DNA of 64,000 nt from an uncultured Actinomycetes bacterium (lineage in GTDB: Bacteria; Actinomycetota; CADDZG01; WHSQ01), in assembly GCA_937863385.1 (NCBI GenBank), contig CALMBW010000020.1, positions 62,001 through 126,000 of the forward strand, read 5' to 3'. Of this stretch, positions 14,796 to 61,645 are shown in pieces (within the stretch, counting starts at the first letter, position 1; each line of letters starts with the position of its first letter). The position numbers and the translations under genes were made by a program. The notes under the pieces were generated by a model. The model made no database searches, was not told the origin of the DNA, and saw only the letters and a program-made list of their open reading frames with translations.

Positions 14796-16109
14796 ATGAC
14801 TGACATCGCGTACACGGCAAGGGACGGGGTCAACCTCGCATACCGGGTTACCGGGCAAGGACCTCCCGACGTGGTGTTCGTTCCGATGTGGTTCTCGAAT
14901 CTAGACATCCTCCTAGAGTCTCCGTCGATCTCTCAAGGCGTAGACGGTTTCACATCGGTCGGCCGGCTCGTTCTGTGGGACCGGCGCGGTTCGGGATTGT
15001 CCGATCGTGGTGTCGAGCCCGCCGGCCTCGACGAACATGCCTTGGATCTGATCGCGGTGATGGACGCTGCCGGGGCGGAAGATCCGGCACTGTTCGGATT
15101 CAATGAGTCGGGGATCTTGGCTGCCTATGCCGCCGCACGTTTCCCGGACAGAGTCTCGAAGCTCGTCCTGTACGGCACCTACGCCACGACCCTGCAGCAG
15201 GACGACTACCCATGGGCGCCGCCGGAGGAAGAGCGCGCCTTGCAGGTTCAGTGGGTGACCAACGAGTGGGGGGCTCGGGATGCTGCGACGATGATGATGG
15301 CAGGAGGCAACGAACGGGACGTGCAGTGGGCCATGCGATGGATGCGAAATTCCGTCAGCCGTGACCGTCTGAAGGCTACTTACGACATGCTCGCTACCTA
15401 CGATGTTCGCGAGATGTTGACGGACATCAAGTGCCCGACGCTCGTTCTACACCGTCGCGACGACCTCAACGTCCCTGCGGCCAACGGCCGTTACATCGCA
15501 TCCAAGATTCCCGGTGCCCGCTACGTCGAGTTCCCAGGCTTCGAGCACTCGCCGTTCCTCGGAGATTGGGACACGATCGCCGGCGAGATCGAAGAGTTCC
15601 TCACGGGAAAGAGAAGGCCTCGGTTCAGTGACCGGGTCTTGGCCACGATCATGTTCACCGACATCGTGTCGTCGACCGAACAAGCTGCGCGCTTGGGTGA
15701 TGCCCGTTGGCGAACGATGCTCGATTCCTACGACGGTGTGGTTCGCAAGCAACTCGAACGGTTCGGCGGCCGCATGATCAAGTTCACCGGGGACGGCTCA
15801 TTGGTAACTTTCGATAGCCCGGCCCGGGCTATCCGCTGCGCTGCTGCGGTCCGAGATGAGCTGGGCGAGCTAGGCATCGAGGTCCGCTGTGGTGTTCACA
15901 CCGGCGAGGTCGAGCTGCGCGGCGATGATGTCGGAGGCATCGCCGTGCACATCGCCGCTCGCGTCATGGACCTTGCCACCTCAGGCGAGGTCCTAGTGTC
16001 GGCCGCGGTTCCGGCGCTCACAACAGGATCGGATGTCACCTTCGAAGAACGTGGCTCCCACCAACTCCGGGGTGTCGAGGGCGAGTGGAAGATCTACGCC
16101 GCAACCTGA
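14796..16109 (+). CDS. Alpha/beta hydrolase fold fused to class III adenylate/guanylate cyclase
   Basis: A 437-residue two-domain signalling protein with no membrane segment. Residues 1-270 form an alpha/beta hydrolase fold; residues 280-437 form a class III nucleotidyl cyclase. The cyclase keeps both metal aspartates, D289 in MFTDIVSST and D333 in KFTGDGSLVTF, and the transition-state arginine R389 in VHIAAR. In the hydrolase domain the nucleophile elbow reads GFNESG, so Asn (N103) stands where Ser is expected. The hydrolase part is therefore probably a sensor rather than an enzyme. A 51-bp palindromic repeat follows the gene. Confidence 0.88.
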   Translation: MTDIAYTARDGVNLAYRVTGQGPPDVVFVPMWFSNLDILLESPSISQGVDGFTSVGRLVLWDRRGSGLSDRGVEPAGLDEHALDLIAVMDAAGAEDPALFGFNESGILAAYAAARFPDRVSKLVLYGTYATTLQQDDYPWAPPEEERALQVQWVTNEWGARDAATMMMAGGNERDVQWAMRWMRNSVSRDRLKATYDMLATYDVREMLTDIKCPTLVLHRRDDLNVPAANGRYIASKIPGARYVEFPGFEHSPFLGDWDTIAGEIEEFLTGKRRPRFSDRVLATIMFTDIVSSTEQAARLGDARWRTMLDSYDGVVRKQLERFGGRMIKFTGDGSLVTFDSPARAIRCAAAVRDELGELGIEVRCGVHTGEVELRGDDVGGIAVHIAARVMDLATSGEVLVSAAVPALTTGSDVTFEERGSHQLRGVEGEWKIYAAT

Positions 16110-16115
16110 CCCAGT

Positions 16116-16166
16116 CGTTCTGTTAACAGATCCCGCCAACAGTTGGCCGTTTTGGTTAACAGAACG
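16116..16166. repeat. 51-bp palindromic intergenic repeat, copy 1
   Basis: Starts CGTTCTGTTAAC and ends GTTAACAGAACG, so the outer arms are perfectly complementary over 12 bases, with an inner palindrome GCCAACAGTTGGC. A second copy with 47 of 51 identical bases lies at 36054-36104. Here it sits between two convergent genes, where it could act as a bidirectional transcription stop. It resembles REP-type elements. Confidence 0.8.
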
Positions 16167-16169
16167 GAG

Positions 16170-17069
16170 TTAGAGGATGCGTTCACCTAGTGCGGAGGCG
16201 ACCAGCTCGACCGCTAGTTGGCCGGTGATATCCGCGTGGTCGAGGATCGGGTTCACCTCCACCACCTCGATCGACGTGAGGGCCTGTGACTCGGCCAGGA
16301 TCTCCATCGCGAGATGAGCCTCGCGGTAGCTGAGACCTCCCTTTACGGGCGTGCCGACCCCCGGCGCGATCTCTGGGTCACACACGTCCACGTCAAGAGA
16401 AAGGTGCACGAATCCTGGCCCTCCCACAACCTCCAAAGCTTCGTGCATCACGGCGTCGACCCCACGCTTGTCGATCTCGTGCATCGTGAAAGCAGTGATG
16501 CCCTGGCTGCGGATCAGGTCTTTCTCGCCGGGGTCGAGCGAGCGAACGCCGACCAGCGCGACCCTCTTTGGGTCAACCCACGGCGGCGCGCCCAGACCAT
16601 CCAGATCGAAGCCGCACACACCGAGCGCGGCGGCCAAAGGCATCCCGTGGACGTTGCCGGTTGGGGAACTGCCGGGGGTGTTCAGGTCGCCGTGGGCATC
16701 GACCCACAGGACGCCACCCGTCCCACTAGCGCGGTGGAGCCCGGCGAGCGTCCCCATCGCTATGGAATGGTCTCCGCCCAGAACGAGTGGGATGGCACCA
16801 GCCTTCGTGATCTCGGAAACGTGCGTAGCGATCTTCGAGCAGGCCGCGAGGATCTCAGGGAGATAGCGAGCATGCTCGTCGGCAACCGACGCTATCTCGG
16901 CGATCTCCACAAGCACGTTTCCGTGATCGCGAACCCCATAACCGAGCTTAGCGATGCGATCATCGAGTCCCGAATAGCGCAAAGCACTCGGACCCATATC
17001 GACACCTCGCCGAGAGGCACCGAGATCGAGTGCAGCACCGAGTATCGCAACCTGTCGTTTCTGATCCAT
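16170..17069 (-). CDS. rocF: Arginase / ureohydrolase family
   Basis: A 299-residue manganese-dependent ureohydrolase converting arginine to ornithine and urea. Metal-site motifs are complete: GGDHSIAMG, WVDAHGDLNTPGSSPTGNVH followed by GMP, and SLDVDVCDP. The N-S/T-x-S-G-N-x-H-G-M-P form favours arginase over agmatinase or formimidoylglutamase. No urease genes are in the window. It is divergent from the downstream SDR gene, with 14 bases between the two start codons, so their promoters must overlap coding or be very compact. Confidence 0.88.
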   Translation of the reverse strand: MDQKRQVAILGAALDLGASRRGVDMGPSALRYSGLDDRIAKLGYGVRDHGNVLVEIAEIASVADEHARYLPEILAACSKIATHVSEITKAGAIPLVLGGDHSIAMGTLAGLHRASGTGGVLWVDAHGDLNTPGSSPTGNVHGMPLAAALGVCGFDLDGLGAPPWVDPKRVALVGVRSLDPGEKDLIRSQGITAFTMHEIDKRGVDAVMHEALEVVGGPGFVHLSLDVDVCDPEIAPGVGTPVKGGLSYREAHLAMEILAESQALTSIEVVEVNPILDHADITGQLAVELVASALGERIL

Positions 17070-17083
17070 GCAAGCATGGTGGC

Positions 17084-17827
17084 ATGAAGTCCGACAGCCC
17101 GCGTACCGCCGTTGTCACCGGCGCATCGAGTGGGATCGGCGAGGCGACCGCTTACCGCCTGGCCGAGGAAGGTTTCGAGCTTGTTCTAGGAGCACGGCGC
17201 CTCGACCGTCTGCGCGAGGTGGCTGCCAAGTGTGGCGCGAAGGCCTACGAGCTAGACGTAACGGACAAGTCTTCGATCCGGGCCTTCTGCGAACGCATCG
17301 AGTCCTGCAACGTGCTGATCAACAACGCGGGGCTCGCGTCTGGCTTCGAACCCGTGACCTCACTTAGCGAAGAACGCCTCCGCGTCATGTGGGAGACGAA
17401 CGTGCTTGGTCTGATCTGGATGACGCAAGCGCTGCACGATCGCTTGGTTGCTTCAGGTAACGGACACGTTGTGAACGTGGGGTCCATCGCCGGGCGCGAG
17501 GTCTATCCCGGTGGCGGCGGCTACACGACCTCGAAACACGCCGTGCGCGTCCTGACCGAAACCATGCGCGTGGAGTGGGCCGGTGAACCCGTCCGGATCA
17601 CCGAGGTTGCCCCCGGCCTGGTCGAAACCGAATTCTCGGTGGTGCGCTTCGATGGCGATCTCGCCAAGGCCAAGAAGCCCTACGAAGGGATCGAGCCTCT
17701 CACCGCAACGGACATCGCAGACTGCATCGCCTGGGCAGTGACGCGGCCCCCTCGTGTGAACATCGACGAGATCGTGGTCAAGCCGGTGCGCCAAGCAACC
17801 GCAACCCACGTCGTGCGCGACCTCTAG
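17084..17827 (+). CDS. SDR family NAD(P)-dependent oxidoreductase (YdfG-like)
   Basis: A 247-residue classical SDR. TGASSGIGEA gives the cofactor fold, NNAG the structural turn, and NVGSIAGREVYPGGGGYTTS-K the catalytic Ser/Tyr/Lys set. The PGGGGYTTSKHAV and VETEFSVVRF segments resemble YdfG/serine 3-dehydrogenase-type enzymes acting on 3-hydroxy acids, but this is only a family-level guess. The ATG at 17084 leaves a short spacer to the divergent arginase gene; an upstream in-frame start would overlap arginase. Confidence 0.85.
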   Translation: MKSDSPRTAVVTGASSGIGEATAYRLAEEGFELVLGARRLDRLREVAAKCGAKAYELDVTDKSSIRAFCERIESCNVLINNAGLASGFEPVTSLSEERLRVMWETNVLGLIWMTQALHDRLVASGNGHVVNVGSIAGREVYPGGGGYTTSKHAVRVLTETMRVEWAGEPVRITEVAPGLVETEFSVVRFDGDLAKAKKPYEGIEPLTATDIADCIAWAVTRPPRVNIDEIVVKPVRQATATHVVRDL

Positions 17828-19554: not shown

Positions 19555-21192
19555 ATGCCGGGAGGATTGGACGGACTTCGGCAGTTGACCGACATCGCCA
19601 AGCCGCGCACGCTGAAACGACTAGCCGCAGCCGGGACCTTCAGTCCCAAGACACCCTTCGCGCTGGCCACGGCGATCCCCTATCTGGTCGGTCGCGGGCC
19701 TTCCCTGGGGATCCTTTCTCAACTGAACTCACTCACCCTCGGCAACAAGCCCGCCATCATCGACCGGAACGGGACGATCACTTTCCGTGAGCTAGACAAA
19801 GAGGTCAACCGCACAGCTCGGGCGATGCTCGAAGCCGGGGTGTCACCCGGCCAGAACGTTGCGCTCTTGATGCGCAACGGCCGGGAGATGGCACAAGTGA
19901 TCCTCGCTTGTCAGAAGACCGGGATAGTTGCCTGCCCCGTGAACACGTGGGCCAAGACCAAAGAACTGAAGGCCGTGATGGACAACATCGATCCGGCTCT
20001 GGTGTTCTACGACACCGGCCATCGCGAGCAGGCCGAGGCGTCAGCTGGTTCTGAAACCGTGTTCGTCCATGTCGGAGATGACGTCAAAGCGATCCCGGGA
20101 TCGGTCGCCCTCGAGCAGCTACTCGAAGGTTCGTCTTCCATGCCACTCGGCCCCCTCACGCGCTCACGCGGATCGGTACGGATCATCATCCAGACCTCTG
20201 GGACGACGGGAACACCCAAAGGCGCAGCCCGAGATGCCAGCGCAAGCGGATTGGGTGCACTTGCGAACCTGCTCGGCGCCGTCCCGTACAAGCGCGAGGA
20301 CATCGTCTTGTGCCCGGCGCCTCTCTTTCATTCCTTCGGCCTGATCACGTTCACGCTGGCAACCGCCCTCGGGATGACGATCGTTCTTCCTTCGAAGTTC
20401 GATCCAGAGGATTGCTTGCGAGCGATCGAAGACAACGGCGTAACGGCAGCTTCGTTCGTTCCCGTCATGATCCGCCGGATCGTCTCCCTGGAGGGTTCGA
20501 AGCGCTCCGCTTACGACCTGTCCAGCCTTCGCATCGTCCTCGCAAGTGGTTCGGTGCTTAGCCTCGACCTGAAGAAAGCTGCGATGGAGCTGTTCGGGGA
20601 AGTGCTCTACGACCTGTACGGATCGACCGAGGCCGGGTGGGTAGCGATCGCTACCCCCGACGACATCCGCAATAAGCCCAAGAGCCTCGGCCGCCCGGTG
20701 GACGGTGTCGAGGTTGCCATCTTCGACCCCGATGGGAACAGGCTGGAGCCCGGTGTAACCGGTGACATCTACATCAAGAGCGATGTCATCTTCGAGGGCT
20801 ACACGTCTGGCGACAACAAGCCCCAGCGCGACGGATACATCTCTATAGGAGACGTCGGGCACCTCGATGACGATGGACACCTATATATCGAGTCTCGAGG
20901 AGATGACATGGTCGTGATCGGCGGCGAGAACGTCTACCCGATCGAGGTGGAGGAAGTGATCGAGTCGCTGGAAGGCGTGTCTGAGGTGACGGTCCTTGGT
21001 CTCGAGGACGACGAGTACGGCCACGTGCTGGCTGCTTACGTGGTCGGGACGACCACACCCGAGGCGATCGAGGAGGCCTGCAGGTCGGAGCTGGCCTCCT
21101 ACAAGGTGCCCAAGAAGATCGAGCTCCTCGACGAGCTGCCTCGAACCTCGACCGGCAAGGTCCTGAAACGAGACCTGGCTTCTCGCGCCTAA
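19555..21192 (+). CDS. AMP-dependent acyl-CoA synthetase/ligase
   Basis: A 545-residue ANL-superfamily ligase that activates a carboxylic acid, probably a fatty acid, through an acyl-adenylate to its CoA thioester. The P-loop TSGTTGTPKG begins at residue 214, the adenine motif is YDLYGSTEAGW, the hinge is GDVGHLDDDGHLYIESR, and the catalytic lysine K535 is in TSTGKVLKRDL. The VVIGGENVYPIEVE segment supports fatty-acyl or medium-chain types. GGAAGGAG precedes the ATG. Chain-length preference is not predictable. Confidence 0.9.
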   Translation: MPGGLDGLRQLTDIAKPRTLKRLAAAGTFSPKTPFALATAIPYLVGRGPSLGILSQLNSLTLGNKPAIIDRNGTITFRELDKEVNRTARAMLEAGVSPGQNVALLMRNGREMAQVILACQKTGIVACPVNTWAKTKELKAVMDNIDPALVFYDTGHREQAEASAGSETVFVHVGDDVKAIPGSVALEQLLEGSSSMPLGPLTRSRGSVRIIIQTSGTTGTPKGAARDASASGLGALANLLGAVPYKREDIVLCPAPLFHSFGLITFTLATALGMTIVLPSKFDPEDCLRAIEDNGVTAASFVPVMIRRIVSLEGSKRSAYDLSSLRIVLASGSVLSLDLKKAAMELFGEVLYDLYGSTEAGWVAIATPDDIRNKPKSLGRPVDGVEVAIFDPDGNRLEPGVTGDIYIKSDVIFEGYTSGDNKPQRDGYISIGDVGHLDDDGHLYIESRGDDMVVIGGENVYPIEVEEVIESLEGVSEVTVLGLEDDEYGHVLAAYVVGTTTPEAIEEACRSELASYKVPKKIELLDELPRTSTGKVLKRDLASRA

Positions 21193-49971: not shown

Positions 49972-51312
49972 TCAGAACCCGCCGGTCGGGCCGCGTCGCA
50001 GCTTCACCCCTCGCTTGCGCCCCAGCAGGTTCGACTTGTTGTTCCCCAGCGAGGCGGCGATCCGGTATGCGAGCCATCCACCCGATGCGGGGAGGACGAA
50101 GATCGCGATGCGCAGAACGTTGGTGATCTGTTCGACCGATGCGTTGAACATGATCGCTAGGACGTCGTTGCCGCCCGCGAGGGTGAGCAGACCGAAGAAG
50201 ATCAGTCCCGCCACCCCGATACCGACCCGGATAGGAACATCCGTGGGGTCGTCCAGCAGGTGGTGCTCCGCTTCGTCCCGGGTGACACGGCGTTCGATCC
50301 ATGGCCAGGCCCCCATGACCGTGAATGCAAGGCCCGGCATAACGACTCCAGGCCAGAACGGTGACGGGATCGTGATCCCGAATAGAGTCAGATCGAGTGG
50401 CGGAAACAGCCGAAGGGCACCTTCGAGCCATCCTACGTACCAGTCCGGTTGGGAAGGTGCGCTAACGGTTGTTGCATCGAACGGACCGAAGTCCCAGATC
50501 GGGTTGATCTGAAGAAGTCCGCCCATGAAAGCGAGCACCGCAGCCGTCAGCGCAAGTAGCGCCGCGGACTTCATCACCTGTTGTGGCCAGAAGGCCTTGC
50601 CGACGACGTTGCCTTCGGTCCTGCCGGCACCTTTGTATTGCGTGTGCTTCTGGCGCCACAGGATCGCTAGATGCACCGACACCAAGCCGATGATCAAGGC
50701 AGGGATCAGCATCACGTGCATAACGAACAGGCGCGAGATGATCCCTTCGGTCGGGAACTCTCCACCGAAGGCGAGGAAGGCTAGATGGGGGCCGAGTAAG
50801 GGAACCGAGATGAGAACGGAGTAGGCGATCCGCAAGCCGGTTCCCGACAAGAGATCGTCGGGCAATGAATATCCGGTGAATCCAGCGCCGATCCCGAGAA
50901 GGAGCAGGACCACACCGACAACCCAGTTCACGTCGCGGGGACGACGGAACGCGCCGGTAAAGAAGACGCGCATCATGTGAACCACGATGGAACCAACGAA
51001 TACCAGCGCTGCCCAATGGTGGATCTGGCGCATCACGAGTCCGGAGCGCACCTCGAACGAGATCCGCAAAACCGACTCGTAAGCTGCCGAGACCTCTTGA
51101 CCTTGCAGGGGTGCATATGGCCCGCGGTACGTCACGAGCTGAGCGTCCGGCCGGTAGAAGAGCGTCAGGAAAACCCCAGTAGCCAACAGGATGATGAAAG
51201 AGAACAGGGCCAGTTCCCCCAGCAGGAACGACCAATGGTCGGGGAAGACCTTCTTGAGGCTCTTTCGCGCCAGTCCGGCGATGCCCAGACGGCCGTCCAG
51301 CCATCTCAGCAT
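49972..51312 (-). CDS. qcrB: Cytochrome b subunit of the bcc complex (QcrB)
   Basis: A 446-residue integral membrane cytochrome b. FPDHWSFLLGELALFSFIIL, RQIHHWAALVFVGSIVVHMM with heme histidines, VNWVVGVVLLLLGIGAGFTG, then FVMHVMLIPALIIGLVSVHL with the second pair, and the quinol-site PDWYVGW (PEWY-type) are present. Actinobacterial length with a long C-terminal tail. It starts at the qcrA stop (TGATG). Confidence 0.94.
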   Translation of the reverse strand: MLRWLDGRLGIAGLARKSLKKVFPDHWSFLLGELALFSFIILLATGVFLTLFYRPDAQLVTYRGPYAPLQGQEVSAAYESVLRISFEVRSGLVMRQIHHWAALVFVGSIVVHMMRVFFTGAFRRPRDVNWVVGVVLLLLGIGAGFTGYSLPDDLLSGTGLRIAYSVLISVPLLGPHLAFLAFGGEFPTEGIISRLFVMHVMLIPALIIGLVSVHLAILWRQKHTQYKGAGRTEGNVVGKAFWPQQVMKSAALLALTAAVLAFMGGLLQINPIWDFGPFDATTVSAPSQPDWYVGWLEGALRLFPPLDLTLFGITIPSPFWPGVVMPGLAFTVMGAWPWIERRVTRDEAEHHLLDDPTDVPIRVGIGVAGLIFFGLLTLAGGNDVLAIMFNASVEQITNVLRIAIFVLPASGGWLAYRIAASLGNNKSNLLGRKRGVKLRRGPTGGF

Positions 51313-52148
51313 CAGCCGCCCCCGCCGGTCATGTTCCAGAACCCCGGACCCACAGGTTCGGTGAAGTCACCGAGCGCGATCAGAAAGCCTTCTTCGTCCA
51401 CACTGATCGGCAGTTGCGGCAGGGGGCGGTCGGCGGGTCCGAACGTCACGCTGCATCCCCGCAAGACATCGAAGGTGGACTGGTGACAAGGACACAGCAG
51501 CTCGTGTGCCTTCGCCCTGTAGAGGCCCACGGGGCACCCGGCATGGGTGCAGATCTTCGAATAGCCGATACAGCCGTCTGGGGCCCACGCGATCCTGTCC
51601 TCGGGCATCTCTAGATCTTGCACGTCGACCTTTATGAGAAGGGTCTGAGCGTCCGGGGAACCGACGTGACCCTCCGGGTAAACGGTGGTCACGCTATCCA
51701 GAACGAGATCGCCCGGGCGAAGGGGTGCACCCTCGGGATCGACCAAGCGAGCCCCTGCGGTCCACGGCGTGGTGAACAGATCCTGGCCGGGCCGGGGCCC
51801 TAGCGAGAGAGCTGGGATCGCAAGGGCTCCGGCGAGGGTTCCGCCCGCTCCCGCCATCAGGCGAACGAGCGCCTTGCGGCGGGTGATGTCAGAGGGGTGC
51901 AGGTCGTCCTCGGCGCGATCCACAAGAGCATCATCAGAAGAAAGCGGCTCACGCTCTTCGGATCTGGTCCTGGATGGGAGGAGGCCGACGGACCACACCG
52001 CCAGCCCAACGCCGAGGCCGCCCAGAGCTGTTCCCAGCAATGCGCCCTCGGCTTGAGCCTGCCCGCCTGAGACGTAGACGCCGACCAGACCCATGGACGC
52101 CATGATCGATACCGCGAACGCTACAGCGACGACCCTTTCAGGCTTCAT
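51312..52148 (-). CDS. qcrA: Rieske iron-sulfur subunit of the bcc complex (QcrA)
   Basis: A 278-residue actinobacterial Rieske protein with three transmembrane helices before the cluster domain. The 2Fe-2S motifs CTHAGCPVG and CPCHQSTFD are intact, each giving one Cys and one His ligand plus the disulfide cysteines. Start chosen at MKPERVVAVAF, after a ribosome site inside the qcrC end; the two genes overlap by 11 bases. Confidence 0.93.
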   Translation of the reverse strand: MKPERVVAVAFAVSIMASMGLVGVYVSGGQAQAEGALLGTALGGLGVGLAVWSVGLLPSRTRSEEREPLSSDDALVDRAEDDLHPSDITRRKALVRLMAGAGGTLAGALAIPALSLGPRPGQDLFTTPWTAGARLVDPEGAPLRPGDLVLDSVTTVYPEGHVGSPDAQTLLIKVDVQDLEMPEDRIAWAPDGCIGYSKICTHAGCPVGLYRAKAHELLCPCHQSTFDVLRGCSVTFGPADRPLPQLPISVDEEGFLIALGDFTEPVGPGFWNMTGGGG

Positions 52149-52863
52149 CACGTTTCCTCTTGGACCCAAGCAGCACGGAGATGGCAACCAAGCATGCGAC
52201 ACCGAGCCCCAATCCAACGAAACCCTCCGGCACCGGACCGATCCCACCTAGGTCCGCGCCCCCGAACGCACGCTGTTCGCGCAGATGCACAACGTAGGCA
52301 ACGATGTCCTGGATGTCCTCACTTTCGATCGCCGTGAACACGGGCATCTGTCCCGGGCCGGTGAGCATCGCTTCGGCGATCTCAACCGGGTCGGCAACAC
52401 TAAGGCTCGGTGCAAGAGCACCGGCTCCGACCGCGCCACCGCTACCAGTTGCTCCGTGGCAGGCAGCACAGTTCGCAACAAAGAGCTCCTGTCCATCCGA
52501 TAGATCAGCACCGTCAAGATCTACCGTTGGGATCTCGGGGCCCTCCCCTAGGGACGCGACGAACGCGGTCAGGGCTTCGATCTCATCTGGCGAGAAGGCA
52601 GGAGGCTTACGAACCGCCTGCGCACCATCGTCCGCCAGAGGCATCCGCCCGGTTCGCAGCTGAAAATCTGCGGCGGCCGCGCCTGCATCGATGATGCTCG
52701 GGCCGGCATCCGTCCCTTGGCCCTCGCTACCGTGACACGAGGCACACGACTCGATGAAGAGTTCACGCCCGTCTGGCTCCGCGGCAACCGATACGGACAG
52801 GGGAGCTAGTACCGCGCCCAGGCAGACAACGAGAGAAACCCGGCGTGAAACGGCTGAAGACAT
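52138..52863 (-). CDS. qcrC: Diheme cytochrome c subunit of the bcc complex (QcrC)
   Basis: A 241-residue exported c-type cytochrome: signal segment SLVVCLGAVLAPLSVSVAA, two heme motifs CASCHG and CAACHG with distal methionines in RMPLAD and QMPVFT, and a C-terminal transmembrane anchor followed by KRKRDEA. The diheme form is what actinobacteria use in place of a soluble cytochrome c. First gene of the operon qcrC-qcrA-qcrB-lipoprotein. Confidence 0.93.
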   Translation of the reverse strand: MSSAVSRRVSLVVCLGAVLAPLSVSVAAEPDGRELFIESCASCHGSEGQGTDAGPSIIDAGAAAADFQLRTGRMPLADDGAQAVRKPPAFSPDEIEALTAFVASLGEGPEIPTVDLDGADLSDGQELFVANCAACHGATGSGGAVGAGALAPSLSVADPVEIAEAMLTGPGQMPVFTAIESEDIQDIVAYVVHLREQRAFGGADLGGIGPVPEGFVGLGLGVACLVAISVLLGSKRKRDEA

Positions 52864-52931
52864 CGACGCCACGATATAAGGCAGACGAGTAGTATGCGGC
52901 CCGCACCCTTGAATCGCGATCGGAGGATCCA

Positions 52932-53168
52932 TTGGCGGAGGTTCGTGCTTACATCCTGATCCAGACCGCAGTGAATGCAGGCCACGTGGCCAAAGAGATC
53001 CGCGCCATCGAAGGGGTCGAGTCCGCAGAGGACGTTTCGGGTCCCTACGACGTGATCGTCGCCACCTCGGCCCCAGACATGGATGCCTTGGGCAGGATGG
53101 TCGTTGCCAAGATCCAAGCGGTCGAGGGGATCACTCGCACCCTGACCTGCCCCGTAGTCCAGCTCTGA
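52932..53168 (+). CDS. Stand-alone Lrp/AsnC ligand-binding (RAM) domain protein
   Basis: A 78-residue protein consisting only of the Lrp/AsnC effector domain without a helix-turn-helix. VRAYILIQTAVNAGHVAKEI, VESAEDVSGPYDVIVATSA and the GITRTLTCPVVQL end are typical of these small amino acid-sensing proteins. The start is TTG, supported by GGAGG six bases upstream. It is divergent from qcrC. Confidence 0.85.
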   Translation: MAEVRAYILIQTAVNAGHVAKEIRAIEGVESAEDVSGPYDVIVATSAPDMDALGRMVVAKIQAVEGITRTLTCPVVQL

Positions 53169-53460: not shown

Positions 53461-55935
53461 TCACGGCTCGACGATCTGCGCAGGGTTGGTCAACTGGTTC
53501 GGAAATACCACGAGCAGTCTCCTTCTCGGGACCTCCAACGGCAGGGCACAATCGGTCCGCCACCACCAGCCTCCACAACCAAGGTTGTCTTCGACCGATC
53601 CGTTGAGATCGATGTCGTCGATCTGGACCGTGTCGCATTCAGGCATCAGTATGTCTCCCGAGAAGGTGTCGCCGCACACCCTGAACGTCGCCGTAAGGGT
53701 GGGCTGCTCGAAGTCCTGCAAATCGGCCACCACCGACAACGAAGACGAGTGCAAGCTGGGGTAGCCCCCGCGCAGGGTGCCGGAGCAGCCACCGAAGGTC
53801 ACCCTGCACCAACCGGGCTCGTAAAGCGGCTTCCGATAAGTGACCGTGCGCTCCCCATCGTTGAGCGTCACGCTAGCGGTCAGGGCGCGGCTGGTTTCGA
53901 ATGCTTCATCGAGGACCGCCACGATCTCAACCGGTTCCGAGATGTCTTCATCACCCTCGGCGAACTCAAGCCAGGTTCGCCCGCGCGGGTCTTCGCCTGA
54001 CGGCAGGATCGCACCGGGGCCGGCGAAGGTACGCGCTCCGACGAAGACGATGTCGGCACCCTCCATCCCATCTCCGAAAGCATCGGAGTTCACGTGCGGA
54101 TACACCTCGGCCGCCGGGCGTCCGGGGGATCCCGATACATCGAGATCGATGGTCGCGGGGTCGCCATCTCCGAGCTTGCTTGGGGCCTCCATCTCCGAGG
54201 CCGGCATCAAGGTCGCTTGCCAGACAGCCGTGTTTGATCGTGGTGCCGAGAACCTCAAACGCCCCCACGCCTGGATCTGGCGTTCGTACCACCTGTCTGA
54301 CTGAGCACGACCTGAGATCTTGCTCTCAGCCGGAACGAAACGCACCCAGATGGTCGTCTCAGGATCGGCTTGAAAGGTGAGCTCGGACTGAAACGATCCT
54401 CCTTCGGCAGAGAACGAGACCTCGAACCCAAGAGGCCCGCGCACGTCGGAGGCAGAAACGGTTCCAACCGTCGCGCTATCGGTCAGGGATCGCACGGTTA
54501 CCGGAAGCACGAGATCGCCCTCTGTCAGTTCTAGCCGGCCCAGCGAGACACTGGGGGGTAACACAACGAAACCCGCTCGCGCGCTTCGGTATATGTCGAC
54601 CCTGCCCGCTCCCGTTACCGTCGGGTCCTGGGAGTTGGACACCTGGGCCGGGCGCGCGCGACCCATCAACATCGCTGCAACTTCCGCAGGTGAAGCGCCC
54701 GGATGACGTTGAAGCAGCAGTGCCGCACTCCCCGACACATGGGGGGCCGCCATAGAGGTTCCCGACTTGTAGCTGCCGCCATCACCAGAACCAACCTCGG
54801 CGGAGAGGATCCCGGCACCGGGCGCGACGACATCGGGCTTCAAGGCAGAAGTCGTGCGGGCCGGGCCTTGCGACGAGAACGCCGCGGCATCGTCGGCGAG
54901 GTCGGTTGCACCGACCGCTACAACGCCCGGCGCCGTAGCTGGTGAGCCGACCATATAGGCAGCAACACCTGAGTACTCGTTGCCCGCATTGCCGGCGGCT
55001 GCGACGAACGAGATGCCAGCGTCAACGAGATTCTGAGCTGCCACCGACTCGGCCGAATCCTGAGTGCCGAAGGTGACTCCGCCGGAGAACGACACAACGT
55101 CCACTCGATCCGATGTGTCGCCATCGTCGTTGGGATCCAAGGCCCGTTCGTATGCGGCGATGAGTACGTCTGCCGTCGACGCACCACCGTTGCCCCAGAC
55201 CTTCAATGCAACGATCTTGGTGCCGGGCGCGACTCCCCGGCCGACCACGCCGGGTACACCCTTGCCGCAGCAGGTCGCACCCACATGGGTTCCATGTCCT
55301 TCAACGTCTAGTGGGTCGGGATCCGGATCGGGCACATCGTTATCCGAGCGCGAATCGATAGGGTCGTAGGGATCCCCCACGAAGTCATAACCGTCGATCA
55401 CTTTGGGGGTTGGGAACGAGCCCTCCTCGATCACCTCAGGGTCGTTACCGCGATAAGCCGCAACGGACCCCGATCCCCCAAACGCCCGATGGGTGTAATC
55501 GATGCCGGAATCGACAACCGCAACGGTGATGCCCTTTCCGGTCAACCCGAGCTGCTTGCGGGCTCTGAAAGCTCCGATGTGTTTGACACTTTCTGAGTTG
55601 TAGGCGCGAACGATCCCTGCCTTCTCGACGCTTTGGACACCCGGCATCCCGGCCAGCCGTAGCGCAGACGCTTGACTCATCCGCGCCGAGAAGCCGTCCA
55701 AGACTCGCTCGTAGACGAACCCCACGCGACCACCGGCGCGGGCCACCGCTCGCCTGGCGCTCCGTGCCACCGCCCCGTCGGTGGACGTCCGGACGATGTA
55801 GACATCCGCAGCTTCGGGCGAAGCCGGCTGGGCCGCACGACCCCTCGCGATCGGGGTCTGCATCAGACCGAACAAGGATGCTGCCGCAAGGCATGCCGCG
55901 AGACTCTTGCGGGTCATCGAGCGTGAAGCGTTCAC
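53461..55935 (-). CDS. Secreted subtilisin-like (S8) serine protease, second copy
   Basis: An 824-residue exported protease: signal peptide (SLAACLAAASLFGLMQTPIA), an I9-type inhibitor propeptide (VYIVRTSTDGAVARSARR to about residue 115), and an S8 domain with D142 in VVDSGIDYTH, H214 in EGHGTHVGATC and S394 in SGTSMAAPHVSG. The C-terminal half is beta-rich with several cysteines and no known domain. The GTG at 55935 overlaps the larE stop (GTGA); an ATG 18 bases later is the alternative start. Confidence 0.92.
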   Translation of the reverse strand: MNASRSMTRKSLAACLAAASLFGLMQTPIARGRAAQPASPEAADVYIVRTSTDGAVARSARRAVARAGGRVGFVYERVLDGFSARMSQASALRLAGMPGVQSVEKAGIVRAYNSESVKHIGAFRARKQLGLTGKGITVAVVDSGIDYTHRAFGGSGSVAAYRGNDPEVIEEGSFPTPKVIDGYDFVGDPYDPIDSRSDNDVPDPDPDPLDVEGHGTHVGATCCGKGVPGVVGRGVAPGTKIVALKVWGNGGASTADVLIAAYERALDPNDDGDTSDRVDVVSFSGGVTFGTQDSAESVAAQNLVDAGISFVAAAGNAGNEYSGVAAYMVGSPATAPGVVAVGATDLADDAAAFSSQGPARTTSALKPDVVAPGAGILSAEVGSGDGGSYKSGTSMAAPHVSGSAALLLQRHPGASPAEVAAMLMGRARPAQVSNSQDPTVTGAGRVDIYRSARAGFVVLPPSVSLGRLELTEGDLVLPVTVRSLTDSATVGTVSASDVRGPLGFEVSFSAEGGSFQSELTFQADPETTIWVRFVPAESKISGRAQSDRWYERQIQAWGRLRFSAPRSNTAVWQATLMPASEMEAPSKLGDGDPATIDLDVSGSPGRPAAEVYPHVNSDAFGDGMEGADIVFVGARTFAGPGAILPSGEDPRGRTWLEFAEGDEDISEPVEIVAVLDEAFETSRALTASVTLNDGERTVTYRKPLYEPGWCRVTFGGCSGTLRGGYPSLHSSSLSVVADLQDFEQPTLTATFRVCGDTFSGDILMPECDTVQIDDIDLNGSVEDNLGCGGWWWRTDCALPLEVPRRRLLVVFPNQLTNPAQIVEP

Positions 55936-57031: not shown

Positions 57032-58621
57032 TTACTCGATGTAGCCGAGGTCTTTCAGGTGTTCGGCTACAGCCGCTGCCTCTTCCTCGGAATACTCCCC
57101 GCCTGCGTCGCGCTCATCGAGTGCGGCCGAGACGGTGACCGGGGTGGAGGTAAGGAAACCGGCATCGAGCGCAACGGTTGCGGGCTTCCCGTCGAGCCCT
57201 TCAGGCACCGCCTCACCCAAGAGCGCAAGGGTCGTGGGGCATACATCGAACAGGTCCAGTTCGTGACCGCTCCCGTGGGTGAAACCCGGGCCGGCGCCCA
57301 CGAAGATGCCGACGGGCCGGTGGTCTGAAGACCAAGCAACATCTACTCCGGCGAGCGGAGCCGGAGGGATGACGACGGGACCAAAGGGAACTCGTCCGGG
57401 AGCCATGCGGTAACCCGCCGACCACGTGTCGCAAACGAGATCGGGAGCCAGGTCAAGAGCCCGGCCGGAATAGATCTCCTCCTTGCGATGGACGGCTGCG
57501 ACCACCTGTTCGCCGGTCTCGGGGTCGGTGATCTCCAGCAACCCGGCCGAGATCTCATCGAGCAAGGCGCCGGCGTCGGCCTGGGCTACGCAACCTTGTG
57601 GTTCTCGCCCGGCGAGGTTCAGCCACAGGTCCGAGTGGACTCCCAAGAACGCCTTGGTGGTGGACCAATCGAATGCGCCCAGTTGCCCTGCAAGCTTCGC
57701 CCCCATGGCCTTGCGTGCCAAACCGGGGGCAAGTCTTCGACCCATCTTTCGAAGGACCGGTGGCAACGCCCAGGCAGCTTCAGCCGCTGCCGATCGCTGG
57801 GAACGGCCTGGGGTTGCTAGCTCTTGCTCGGCCAGCCAGGCTCCCACGTTGATATCTCCTTTGAGGGGGCCGGCGCCGTGGTCGCTCACGATCATCACGG
57901 TAGCTTGCTTGAACGCATCGACCAGGTGGCCCGTTGCGGCATCCATGGCCTCGTACACGTCTTCGATAGCTCCGGCAAGGCGATGATCGCTGTCACGGAA
58001 CTGCCAGAAGAAATGCTGTGCCCGATCGACGTGTGGCCACACGATCTCCACACAATCCGCCTCGGTCCTATCGATCGCCCACGCCAACGCTTCGGCTTGC
58101 ACGCCGAGTCCCCGGATCAAGTCATCACGGAAAACTTCGAGCGTGGAGTGCGGAGCACGGTCAAGCAGATCCTCGATCGGAAAGGCCGCGTTTAGCTCGT
58201 TCTGAAATCCCGCCGGCTCCGTGATCGATGCACCCGGAGGTGCCCCATAGCCTGCGACCATCACCCCCGGCACGGTTGTGGCCGGGAACGTCATCGGCAC
58301 GTTCCAAACCAGATGCTTGGTGTTCTCGGTCATCTCCCACAGCGCCGGAGCCCGGCGATCCCGGGACGAGAAGTACCGGCATGAATACGAACCAGGCGCT
58401 CGATACCAAGAACCGAAGATGCCGTGGGCACCGGGATTACGCCCCGTGAAGGCAGTGGTCCATGCACAGTCGGTCATGGGCGGCCACGTGGATCGCAATC
58501 CTGCCCGGTAGCCGCGATCGATCAGAGATCTAAGGGCGGGCAAGCGGCCGGCGGCGAGCATGGGATCGATGATGTCGAAGGTCGCCGAGTCCCACCCGAC
58601 GACCAGCACCTTTGGAGCCAT
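57032..58621 (-). CDS. Type I phosphodiesterase / nucleotide pyrophosphatase family protein
   Basis: A 529-residue alkaline-phosphatase-superfamily hydrolase without signal peptide. VLVVGWDSATFDIIDPML starts with the first metal aspartate; the nucleophile Thr or Ser is expected in the TWPPMTDCAWTTAFTG block; VMIVSDHGAGPLKGDINV and WSSDHRPVGIFVGAGPGF give the later metal ligands. Substrate is unknown; relatives act on phosphodiesters or phosphonates. The C-terminus ends EEEAAAVAEHLKDLGYIE, a tail shared with the small RHH protein at 37272. Confidence 0.85.
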   Translation of the reverse strand: MAPKVLVVGWDSATFDIIDPMLAAGRLPALRSLIDRGYRAGLRSTWPPMTDCAWTTAFTGRNPGAHGIFGSWYRAPGSYSCRYFSSRDRRAPALWEMTENTKHLVWNVPMTFPATTVPGVMVAGYGAPPGASITEPAGFQNELNAAFPIEDLLDRAPHSTLEVFRDDLIRGLGVQAEALAWAIDRTEADCVEIVWPHVDRAQHFFWQFRDSDHRLAGAIEDVYEAMDAATGHLVDAFKQATVMIVSDHGAGPLKGDINVGAWLAEQELATPGRSQRSAAAEAAWALPPVLRKMGRRLAPGLARKAMGAKLAGQLGAFDWSTTKAFLGVHSDLWLNLAGREPQGCVAQADAGALLDEISAGLLEITDPETGEQVVAAVHRKEEIYSGRALDLAPDLVCDTWSAGYRMAPGRVPFGPVVIPPAPLAGVDVAWSSDHRPVGIFVGAGPGFTHGSGHELDLFDVCPTTLALLGEAVPEGLDGKPATVALDAGFLTSTPVTVSAALDERDAGGEYSEEEAAAVAEHLKDLGYIE

Positions 58622-58630
58622 GCGTGAACC

Positions 58631-59221
58631 TTACGGGCTGGGCTCGGGTGACGGTGGATCGGTCGGGGTAACCGTCGGAGTGGGAGTCACATCAGGTCTC
58701 AGCTGGGTCACCACACCCGTGTCCGGGATGCGATCGATACACACCCTGCGGCAGTTCTCTGAGCTGAAGAGCGTCTTGACTATCCACCGGTAGTCGATCC
58801 GGTCCTCCCCTAGATGCAACTTGTCCAGAGGGATCCGGACCGAGATGCTCGATCGGTCCTTACGCCACACCTTTAACGATGCGATGCGGTAATCACTCTT
58901 CTTCTTACGGTCTCGATAGAGGTCGCCATGGAACCCGCGGCCATCCGAATAGAGCAGAGCGTAATGATCGAAGCGTCCATCGCCGAAGCCATCGATGTGC
59001 ACCATCACGAAACCGGCGTCCCACATGTCAAACGCCCTGAACTTGGAGAACGAGATGGTGCGCCATACGGGAGAGTTGCTAGACGACATGCGAACCTGAC
59101 TGACGTCGAGCACTCCGTCCGTATCGTTCGGATCATCGAACGGCTGCGCAGCAGCTCTAACGAGCAGTGGCGATGACGCTAGGAGCAGCACCAGCAGGGC
59201 TAACCATCTCAACCTGGTCAT
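58631..59221 (-). CDS. Secreted protein of unknown function in the Mau-like module
   Basis: A 196-residue exported protein with signal peptide (LALLVLLLASSPLLVRAAA), an acidic DDPNDTDGVLDVSQVRM start, a beta-rich body (RTISFSKFRAFDMWDAGFVM, RFDHYALLYSDGRG, RIPLDKLHLGEDRIDYRWIV), two cysteines in CRRVCIDR, and a Pro/Thr-rich tail. No known domain. The ATG overlaps the mauE stop by four bases, so the two are co-translated. Confidence 0.75.
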   Translation of the reverse strand: MTRLRWLALLVLLLASSPLLVRAAAQPFDDPNDTDGVLDVSQVRMSSSNSPVWRTISFSKFRAFDMWDAGFVMVHIDGFGDGRFDHYALLYSDGRGFHGDLYRDRKKKSDYRIASLKVWRKDRSSISVRIPLDKLHLGEDRIDYRWIVKTLFSSENCRRVCIDRIPDTGVVTQLRPDVTPTPTVTPTDPPSPEPSP

Positions 59222-59748
59222 TCGATACCTCTCTTGAACGAACGAGTGACCGAGTAAAGCAGCCACACCGCAGCGGCAGCAGCCAGCAACATGAGCAAGG
59301 CCGGGACGATCTGGTCCCCGCTGGGCACCCCGACACCTTCCAACAGATCCACCTCGCGATCCCCCAGAAGCATCACGGCGGCGGCGCCGCCGAGAACGGT
59401 ATTGCGCAAGAGGATGACCCTGTAGTCCCGAACCTTGCTTGACCCGAAGCATCCACATGGAAGCCGATCGCCCTGAAGATTCCTCAGTCTTACCGCGGCA
59501 AAGGTGAATGCACTCAACATCCCGACCGACATCGCGCCGGCGGTTCGGGTCTCGCCCGCCAGTACCAAGGCGGTCACAAGAGCTTCGGTCAAGGGCACCA
59601 GGAGGGCGGCGAAAGCCGTTAAGGCACCCAAACGATAGTTCTTCAGAACGTCTCGCCATGCCTGGGGTCGAGCCATCTTGGCCCCGGCGGACCAAGCAAA
59701 CACAACCGCTATCAACGCTGAACAGACTTGGATCGTCGCAGCCGGCAC
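59218..59748 (-). CDS. mauE: MauE/DoxX-like redox membrane protein
   Basis: A 176-residue four-helix membrane protein of the MauE family. The signature LPCGCFGSSK lies after the second helix; its paired cysteines are thought to pass reducing or oxidising equivalents across the membrane. In methylotrophs MauE and MauD are needed for folding of the methylamine dehydrogenase light chain. It is divergent from the MauD gene with a 126-base spacer. Confidence 0.88.
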   Translation of the reverse strand: MPAATIQVCSALIAVVFAWSAGAKMARPQAWRDVLKNYRLGALTAFAALLVPLTEALVTALVLAGETRTAGAMSVGMLSAFTFAAVRLRNLQGDRLPCGCFGSSKVRDYRVILLRNTVLGGAAAVMLLGDREVDLLEGVGVPSGDQIVPALLMLLAAAAAVWLLYSVTRSFKRGIE

Positions 59749-59874: not shown

Positions 59875-60435
59875 TTGGACGGTTGGTGGGCAGCTTCGTA
59901 CATCGCACTGTGGTTGTTGGTCATCGTCCTGGCAGTGGTCGTCGCTGCCCTTGCCCGCCAGATCGGCACCTTGCACCTACGGCTCGGCCCCCGCGGAGCC
60001 CTCGAACTAGACGATGAGGGGCCCGCTCTGGAAGAGATTCTTCCCGTGACCACTGCGACCTCGGTGGAGGGAACGGCAGTGTCGTTAGGGGGACCGGGAG
60101 AAGCCCAGCTCCTGCTCTTCGTATCGCCTGGGTGCGGCGTCTGTGAGCAGGTGCTTCCGTCGATCCCGGTCATCGCCCAAGCCGGACGGATCGCTCCCTA
60201 TGTCCTTACCGATGTGGACGCAGAAGAGACCGAGCTCGCCTACAAGAACAAGCGACTTGGGGTACCGCTCGTTCCGGCAAGTGAGGCCGTGCTCCGCTAT
60301 GGGATCCCGGGCACCCCTTATGTTGTCGTGACAGACGCTACGGGGACGGTGCGGGCGAAGGGCACAGTGAACAATCTCGAGCAGATGGAAGGTTTGGTTG
60401 ATTCAGCGGACAAGAGGAGCAGAACAGGTGCTTGA
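59875..60435 (+). CDS. mauD: MauD-like thioredoxin-fold membrane protein
   Basis: A 186-residue protein with one N-terminal transmembrane helix (ASYIALWLLVIVLAVVVAAL), the MauD-type HLRLGPRGALELDDEG linker, and a thioredoxin-like domain facing outward with the redox motif CGVC in LLFVSPGCGVCEQVLPS and a cis-proline GIPGTPYVVV. It is expected to make or reshuffle disulfides in the exported MauA-like protein next door. It starts with TTG after GGAAGG. Confidence 0.87.
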   Translation: MDGWWAASYIALWLLVIVLAVVVAALARQIGTLHLRLGPRGALELDDEGPALEEILPVTTATSVEGTAVSLGGPGEAQLLLFVSPGCGVCEQVLPSIPVIAQAGRIAPYVLTDVDAEETELAYKNKRLGVPLVPASEAVLRYGIPGTPYVVVTDATGTVRAKGTVNNLEQMEGLVDSADKRSRTGA

Positions 60436-60958
60436 TTCGATCACGACCAAGGTGAGTGTCGGCCTGGCTGGATCGACGAGCAGACGATCCTTTTTGGGCC
60501 GGCTCGGCGCAGGTGTCGTGGCTCTAGCTGGTGGTCCTTTAGTTGCTGCGGCCTTGAGGCCGGAGAGGGCCGAGGCGTATCACATCTGTGGGCACACCTA
60601 CACGACGGACTCTTGCCCGCATCCGTACCGTCCGCTCAGCCGTGTTGACAGATTCGGCTACCCGATCCATCCAACCTACGGATATCCCGTTGACGACAAG
60701 GGCCGCATCTACAAGAGCAAGCATCAGAAACGCAGCCTCATGTGTCAGGACTTGGTCAAGAAGAGATACCCCCATACAGGCGAACCTCGTTACGGCGGTG
60801 GCTGGAGTCGCTGTTGCAACGGGCGCGTTCGTCGTATCGCGGATTGTTGCAGCTACTCGCGCACCCGGATCAATGGCGACGCCAGCGTGACCGGATACTG
60901 CTACAGCGGTACTCGGGTGTTCTGCATCGGCTACCGCGACACCAACGTTCGCTGCTAA
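60428..60958 (+). CDS. Tat-exported cysteine-rich MauA-like (light chain-like) protein
   Basis: A 176-residue protein with a twin-arginine signal (STSRRSFLGRLGAG then a hydrophobic stretch), processed near AEAYH. The mature part has ten cysteines (including CC pairs in SRCCNG and ADCCSY) and many Gly/Tyr/Arg residues. Its place after MauD and its Cys pattern resemble methylamine dehydrogenase light chain. However, the mature chain has only one tryptophan (in GGGWSRCC), so the two-Trp cofactor TTQ cannot form. No heavy chain or MauG is nearby. The GTG overlaps mauD by eight bases, with GAGGAG upstream. Confidence 0.75.
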   Translation: MLDSITTKVSVGLAGSTSRRSFLGRLGAGVVALAGGPLVAAALRPERAEAYHICGHTYTTDSCPHPYRPLSRVDRFGYPIHPTYGYPVDDKGRIYKSKHQKRSLMCQDLVKKRYPHTGEPRYGGGWSRCCNGRVRRIADCCSYSRTRINGDASVTGYCYSGTRVFCIGYRDTNVRC

Positions 60959-60961
60959 CCC

Positions 60962-61036
60962 ATGAACGAGGTAACGGTGGTTGTCACCGTCCTCGCGTCG
61001 ATCATCGCCGGGTGGTCGACCTTGTTCGGCCCCTGA
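60962..61036 (+). CDS. Possible 24-residue hydrophobic peptide
   Basis: An open frame from ATG to TGA beginning MNEVTVVVTVLASIIAGWST and ending L-F-G-P, a single membrane-spanning helix. It begins three bases after the MauA-like stop and ends nine bases before the next gene. There is no good Shine-Dalgarno, so coupled translation would be required. Support is position and composition only. Confidence 0.35.
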   Translation: MNEVTVVVTVLASIIAGWSTLFGP

Positions 61037-61045
61037 GGTCTTTCG

Positions 61046-61645
61046 ATGGTGGAAACCATCTCCCCCATGGTGCATGGGGGCCGTAATGCCTCTTACTACA
61101 GAGCCGTAGCGCTGCACACACTAGGTGCGTCACTTTCTGCGGCCGCGCTCGGAACAGCACTGGGCGTTTTCGGCAGTACGCTCGGCGCGCCATGGGGTGA
61201 CGGCGGACTGTGGGTTGTTGCAGGGATCGCAGCACTGTATGCGCTACGCGAGCTTGCAGGGGTGAACATCCCATTGTTGGACCTGGACCGACAGGTACCC
61301 ATGTGGTGGCGCAGCTTCTTTAGCAACGACATCGCAGCGCTCCTCTACGGACTCGGCTTAGGCGTTGGATTCGTTACTTACCTCAGCTTCGGGACGCTGA
61401 TCGCCGTGGCAGCAACCGCTTTGGTGTCTGGCTCCCCAGGCATAGGGGTGCTTTGCTTGCTCCCGTTCGGCATCGCCCGCGGACTATCAGTCCTCGCCGT
61501 AGGAAAGGGCGAACCCAGCGACCTCCTCGAACGGCTGGAAGACCCGGCGATCCGAGCCCGAGCAAAACTCGTCAACGGTCTCGCTTTGGTGACGGCGGCA
61601 GTCGCGGTTGCCGCCCCGACCCTAGTCGATAGTCCTTTTCCCTAG
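61046..61645 (+). CDS. Integral membrane protein of the Mau-like module
   Basis: A 199-residue protein with about five helices. The N-terminal TISPMVHGGRNASYYRAVAL, the loop LDLDRQVPMWWRSFFSNDIA and the LLPFGIARGLSVLAVGKGE segment look like conserved family features, but I know no function. GAGG is well placed before the ATG. The stop overlaps the CCCTAGGA element ahead of the regulator gene. Confidence 0.7.
   Translation: MVETISPMVHGGRNASYYRAVALHTLGASLSAAALGTALGVFGSTLGAPWGDGGLWVVAGIAALYALRELAGVNIPLLDLDRQVPMWWRSFFSNDIAALLYGLGLGVGFVTYLSFGTLIAVAATALVSGSPGIGVLCLLPFGIARGLSVLAVGKGEPSDLLERLEDPAIRARAKLVNGLALVTAAVAVAAPTLVDSPFP

Follow-up and report, generated by a model that had tools for sequence, protein, structure and literature searches.

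Gene content of the locus

The window, i.e., the whole 64,000-nt stretch of DNA that was analyzed, carries towards its end a cluster of mau-like genes with the following features.

58631..59221, minus strand: Sec196, a secreted 196-aa protein with no family assigned, described from an AlphaFold2 model and locus conservation
59218..59748, minus strand: MauE-like membrane protein with a PCGCFG motif (PF07291, 78.9 bits, cut-off 27)
59875..60435, plus strand: MauD-like thioredoxin-family protein with a CGVC motif (TIGR02661, 96.5 bits, E 1.3e-27, below the cut-off of 188.6)
60428..60958, plus strand: MauA-like, Tat-exported, ten-Cys protein of 176 aa, GTG start to TAA; precursor residues C54, C63, C106, W126, C129, C130, D139, C140, C141, Y157, C158, C166, and C176
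60803, 60842, and 60896, plus strand: codons of W126, D139, and Y157, respectively
60962..61645, plus strand: MauF-like membrane protein of 227 aa, obtained via UGA read-through, with a proposed Sec25 (GPUGLSMVET)
61034..61036, plus strand: proposed selenocysteine (Sec) codon, an in-frame UGA at the conserved MauF Cys
61062..61080, plus strand: hairpin CCCCCAUGGUGCAUGGGGG, a proposed bacterial SECIS whose apical loop begins 32-33 nt after the UGA

At its 3′ end, the mauD-like gene runs into the beginning of the MauA-like gene, and it is divergent from the mauE-like gene, whose product has the CGCF motif in common with MauE from P. denitrificans. The cluster corresponds to P. denitrificans mauFBEDA minus mauB. 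Across 63 homologous loci, a MauD-like protein is found in 60, a MauF-like protein in 58, and a MauE-like protein in 56, some of the misses being contig ends. Fusions occur as well: in one family, MauF and MauE form a single ORF, and in the class of genome G055, MauE and MauD are mostly one ORF and MauF mostly carries a tail of ~250 residues. A profile of this tail matches TolB β-propellers (E 0.004-0.016), which account for 11 of the 14 chains listed. In two genomes of one genus, a TolB-like propeller is encoded directly after the MauA-like gene (L063, 8902-10347; L139, 4949-6349), and no MauF match was found at either locus. No MauB or MauG homolog was found in the 30 homologous-locus stretches searched, and the MauB family PF06433 had no match in the source genome, a search in which no control gave a signal. 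At L045 (genome G103), the MauD-like gene is apparently split into overlapping frames beside an intact MauA-like gene, and neither MauF nor MauE was found in that stretch.

Sec196, a label coined here that is unrelated to selenocysteine, is a conserved neighbor of the cluster in two families, one of them the window's. It was found in 19 of the 63 loci, and in 18 of the 63 it lies no more than 3 kb from the MauA-like gene. Its AlphaFold2 model is a β-sandwich of modest confidence (pLDDT 61.5), for which Foldseek returned nothing with E ≤0.001. The best VIA match is glucodextranase 1ug9 (Z 8.9, rmsd 3.8, 132 residues aligned), nearly tied with many antibody domains, and no family was drawn from it. 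Also near the cluster are a subtilase (53461-55935) and a type I phosphodiesterase (57032-58621), the latter being close to the cluster in several genomes of the same family as well. Farther upstream (49972-52932) lie genes that, named from their ORF translations, presumably encode proteins resembling cytochrome b, a Rieske protein, and a c-type cytochrome.

Conservation of the MauA-like protein

The MauA-like gene is single-copy in the source genome. Its frame has no stop between the GTG and the TAA. As the original prediction had it, the mature part of the 176-aa product contains ten Cys and a single Trp, which lies within GGGWSRCC. The precursor begins with a twin-arginine signal (TIGR01409, 22.6 bits, exceeding the cut-off of 16.7).

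Searching 396 genomes of the phylum with the protein gave matches in 30 (the matches L028 and L030 were dropped as chance), and a profile search of 396 genomes matched 31, one of which (E 1.7e-4) was taken as chance. Homologs are present in 38 of 299 genomes in the class of G055 and in 2 of 66 in the class of G118; the named relatives with a homolog are all Actinomycetota metagenome bins (9/9). None was found on plasmids, and none of 37 pattern matches on viral contigs was confirmed as a homolog. The resulting set comprises 63 homologs, 59 of them full-length and four short versions in fusion with a cell-wall-binding-2-like part. These short fused forms (L066, 7134-8642; L168, 6601-7992; L169, 6346-7743; L068) are adjoined by a UGA-containing mauF in four of four cases and by mauD in three, and the one fused protein tested against CW_binding_2 in Pfam scored 24.2 bits, just below the cut-off.

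The ten Cys and the Trp are present in 26/26 of the homologs first aligned. In the larger set, the full-length proteins retain every one of the ten Cys along with W126, D139, and Y157 (59/59); the latter three residues are kept in 63/63 homologs, the four fused members included. Apart from Cys and Gly, the residues that do not vary across an 18-row joint alignment are W, D, Y, and V. The conserved Trp is the sole Trp in 35 of the 59 full-length proteins, and the rest have two to five, with the extra ones at nonconserved positions. A second Trp is not conserved in any of the 63 homologs. With the Cys and the Trp this well conserved, neither chance nor a sequencing change lies behind the pattern in the window.

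Probable relationship to the MADH light chain

The tryptophan tryptophylquinone (TTQ) cofactor of the methylamine dehydrogenase (MADH) light chain forms from two Trp residues. The original prediction that the MauA-like protein cannot carry TTQ is supported by the missing second Trp and by the genome, in which no MauG-type protein was found (no match for the MauG family PF03150, with 2 of 14 controls giving a signal).

Its description as MauA-like stands on gene context and on bridging alignments, and fails with direct family models and the PDB. A Pfam scan of the protein gave no family, PF02975 included. TIGR02659 scored 24.7 bits against a cut-off of 196.85, over residues 2-45 only, which is the leader. 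PF02975 found nothing in the source genome, where search controls were silent too, and a single weak match under cut-off across 296 genomes of the phylum. A PDB search retrieved no MADH chain, and comparing the mature family with MauA by hhalign gave a nonsignificant probability of 0.4%. The AlphaFold2 model of the mature protein, built with ten close sequences in the alignment, is uninformative (pLDDT 40.3). Searched with the A2 profile, plasmids from T. roseum, P. denitrificans, and N. aromaticivorans yielded one match (E 0.098), which is not at the light-chain genes.

The bridge is the cell-wall-fused family. Against Cys-preserving shuffles, the main family aligns with the cell-wall-fused family at z 12-13, the fused family with T. 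roseum light chains at z 3.2-4.3, and the T. roseum light chains with MauA at z 10-16. Unanchored alignment of the main family to MauA or T. roseum was no better than shuffles. A Trp-anchored T. roseum alignment equates W126 with Trp57, D139 with Asp76, C140/C141 with Cys77/Cys78, Y157 with Trp108, and C166 with Cys121 (MADH numbering). The anchored C-terminal alignment, with Y157 on Trp108, was equaled by none of 200 shuffles; its z is inflated because the null is itself anchored at the Trp. Direct alignment to MauA favors another register, with Phe165 on Trp108, at a z of about 1. This register (VFC versus IIWC) was tried first and then dropped for Tyr157, since position 165 is F in 55 and Y in 4 of the 59 full-length homologs, Tyr157 is present in 59/59, and T. 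roseum prefers Tyr157. A CTQ-like site with a Cys replacing Trp108, considered from the sequence, was dropped as well because MauA has a Cys to match the aligned one.

Kinship of the protein with MauA is thus likely but not proven. By way of the bridge family, the retained Trp aligns with the residue that bears the quinone, and Tyr stands at the position of Trp108, to which that residue is cross-linked in MADH; TTQ is therefore excluded.

The main alternative is that an unrelated Cys-rich exported protein took over a MauD/MauE/MauF relay, its W/D/Y coincidence with the TTQ site being due to chance aided by Cys-adjacent positions. The failure to find a Pfam family, a PDB match, or a significant direct profile comparison is what this reading would predict, as is an N-terminal half that differs from MauA, and Streptomyces mauE/mauD homologs are described as existing without other mau genes in PMC7794033. 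Against it, the gene order after MauD is the same, the long Tat leader is of the same kind (TIGR02659), the bridge family does align, and one class has a β-propeller partner. We regard an unrelated origin as rather unlikely.

Alternatively, the protein might be an enzyme with another Trp-derived group, either an Asp-assisted hydroxy-Trp or a Trp-Tyr cross-link replacing the Trp-Trp one. Invariance of W, D, and Y in all 63 homologs fits this idea, and the propeller partner recalls MADH architecture. For MADH and LodA/GoxA, PMC7876137 describes the initial hydroxylation of Trp as probably autocatalytic and assisted by a neighboring Asp, and the conserved Trp and Asp thus leave room for such a group. 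However, no MauG-type protein was found in the genome, Tyr119 and Thr122 of MADH are not kept in the family at the T. roseum register, and there is no sign of any modification. An enzyme of this sort is in our view unlikely. Quite unlikely, too, is an MADH-like light chain whose TTQ site has been rebuilt on Trp/Asp/Tyr into a new Trp-Tyr or hydroxy-Trp cofactor, with maturation that depends on a Sec-containing MauF.

An in-frame UGA in the mauF-like gene

A plain ORF list gives the mauF-like gene as 61046-61645 only, and the original prediction overlooked its UGA-containing form. Its frame, however, extends back to an ATG at 60962, just past the stop of the MauA-like gene, with the UGA as the sole interruption. 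The protein scores below the cut-off for DsbD_TM (PF02683, 19.5 bits versus 27.1), and no NCBIfam model scored above cut-off. The window ORF from 61046 matches P. denitrificans MauF at 1e-7 in phmmer, and a profile of 58 MauF-like proteins matches it with 115.6 bits, no shuffled decoy being listed at E ≤10. Judged by these matches, the MauF-like proteins are true MauF relatives.

We scanned 64 loci for the MauF motif, which 58 possess. At the motif position, UGA is found in 43 of the 58 genes, Cys in 15, and UAA or UAG in none. No other Cys/Sec position is conserved in 58/58, which leaves the chain without a second conserved Cys; in P. denitrificans MauF, the residue at this position is Cys (P-C-G). 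Cys-type mauF genes continue without interruption across the same region. In the UGA genes, a coding pattern is seen on either side of the UGA (codon-position differences of 2286, 1613, and 3369 before it and 4092, 3227, and 6154 after it), and the 16 codons before it contain no further in-frame stop in any of the 43. The tree requires three Sec/Cys changes, two of which are forced by well-supported branches. A clade of four UGA genes is nested within the Cys group, and their hairpin differs, lying 20-21 nt from the UGA.

A covarying hairpin downstream of the UGA

The hairpin after the UGA has at least six of seven pairs in 36 of the 43 UGA genes and in none of the 15 Cys genes. Over all 43 UGA genes, it shows 39 two-sided changes versus a shuffled mean of 14.7, a value reached by 0 of 500 shuffles (these counts are not probabilities because the sequences are related). 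When the position was slid along the 35 of 43 UGA sequences used for this control, covariation was lower everywhere, and the Cys genes show no excess at the hairpin position.

Bacterial SECIS elements are described in PMC13188914 as having a loop of 3-9 nt, a stem of 4-16 bp, and a G in the first two loop positions, at a distance of 16-37 nt from the UGA, and the window hairpin satisfies these rules. A conforming hairpin of at least 6 bp is present in 43/43 UGA genes. The rules are loose, however, and in this GC-rich sequence 5 of 15 Cys genes and 1224 of 2866 control windows have such a hairpin too. With a stem of at least 7 bp required, the corresponding figures are 36/43, 2/15, and 664/2866. 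Folded as a single sequence, the window region does only modestly better than its shuffles (z -2.4 to -0.6, depending on the span), and comparison with synonymous recoding gives a weak difference between UGA genes (mean z -1.3) and Cys genes (mean z -1.0). Rfam had no match at the hairpin except for a chance-level CRISPR-repeat.

The source genome encodes a tRNA-Sec (81.4 bits versus 47), which ARAGORN also calls as tRNA-SeC. Among the eight ORFs of at least 280 aa near it, no SelA, SelB, or SelD was recognized by eye. Searches for tRNA-Sec were successful in 31 of 43 genomes with a UGA-containing mauF, 9 of 15 with the Cys form, and 18 of 22 others. Because these proportions do not separate the groups (Fisher p 0.52 for co-occurrence with UGA/Cys), the distribution of tRNA-Sec is compatible with a link to Sec-containing MauF without supporting it.

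It is very unlikely that the UGA is an ordinary stop, with a shorter MauF starting at Met 61046 and the upstream piece forming a separate small peptide: an ATG does lie at 61046, four codons past the UGA, and 12 of the 43 UGA genomes have no tRNA-Sec that we could find, but the stop is UGA in 43/43 and never UAA or UAG, it replaces the Cys of 15 homologs and of P. denitrificans MauF, the covarying hairpin is confined to UGA genes, and the Cys genes read through. With a UGA at a conserved Cys and a covarying hairpin downstream, the MauF-like protein is a selenoprotein candidate and likely represents a selenoprotein family. Ordinary ORF calling cuts its gene at the UGA, and the redox residue is therefore lost.

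Interpretation

We computed here the conservation of the cluster, the invariance of W/D/Y and of the Cys, the exchange of UGA and Cys, the covarying hairpin, and the tRNA-Sec. Our preferred explanation, which we consider probable, is that the MauA-like protein is an exported, disulfide-rich relative of the MADH light chain that lacks TTQ, is served by a relay of MauD, MauE, and Sec-containing MauF, and probably acts as a rigid scaffold. What we infer is that the protein has a MauA fold, which way the redox relay runs, which proteins act as partners, and that there is no cofactor.

In outline, a light-chain relative would have lost TTQ, keeping the quinone-bearing Trp and the adjacent Asp while Trp108 became an invariant Tyr. 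The Tat system would export it, and a dedicated relay of MauD (CxxC), MauE (CxC), and MauF would oxidize it. In the source genome and most relatives, MauF would have Sec rather than Cys at its single conserved redox position, the UGA being recoded as Sec through the hairpin just downstream. This Sec may exchange with the CxC of MauE or the CxxC of MauD, thereby setting the ten Cys of the exported protein. The mature product would probably be a rigid five-disulfide scaffold acting with a partner, which could be the TolB-like β-propeller in one class and perhaps Sec196 in the window's group. The role of MauE in forming light-chain disulfides is itself called speculative in PMC7794033.

No paper on this family was found in the open-access literature, searched for MauA/MauE/TTQ homologs and for MauF selenoproteins, and no link between selenium and mau maturation was seen there. 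A table of 119 selenoprotein families or subfamilies in a 2026 selenoproteome review (PMC13188914) does not list MauF, which would be a likely addition. More broadly, what was presumed to be an accessory cluster for amine oxidation may serve more generally in the folding of exported proteins, also where TTQ is absent. Because Cys and Sec forms of MauF occur side by side in nature, what selenium contributes to membrane thiol transfer can be tested directly, and the invariant Trp/Asp/Tyr trio offers a ready test of TTQ-site repurposing.

Comparison with known systems

Like P. denitrificans MauA (PF02975, TIGR02659), the protein described here is a small Cys-rich exported protein with a Tat leader, encoded after mauD, and the bridge alignment suggests that it shares the Trp57/Asp76/CysCys pattern. 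It differs in that Trp108 is missing (Tyr in the preferred register), that there are ten rather than twelve Cys, that the N-terminal half is new, and that neither MauB nor MauG was found.

The light chains on T. roseum plasmid NC_011961 (L072) have GGAWYVCC, YRDCC, and then W-C, where our protein has Y-C. In Trd1 as in our protein, the next Cys comes eight residues after this W-C, and there is an extra C-terminal Cys; unlike our protein, the T. roseum light chains keep both Trp and are adjoined by β-propeller genes. The light-chain-like ORFs on this plasmid are at 12097-12537, 15956-16417, 16720-17172, and 19836-20189, one of them annotated as a light chain. The genes of ~400 aa interleaved with them match or resemble β-propellers, and one of these propeller-like proteins is a fusion with MauE.

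As for MauF, whole-length profile matching and the single conserved Cys position place the MauF-like proteins with MauF and other DsbD/CcdA-type membrane proteins. In contrast to known MauF, 43 of the 58 have UGA at that position, one class is fused to a TolB-like propeller, and another family is fused to MauE. A further parallel is TsoB (NF045694), a DsbD-related selenoprotein that resembles a rhodanese/DsbD fusion and is included in the 2026 table (PMC13188914). TsoB has two Sec in a UxxxxU motif and a rhodanese domain, whereas the MauF-like protein would have one Sec.
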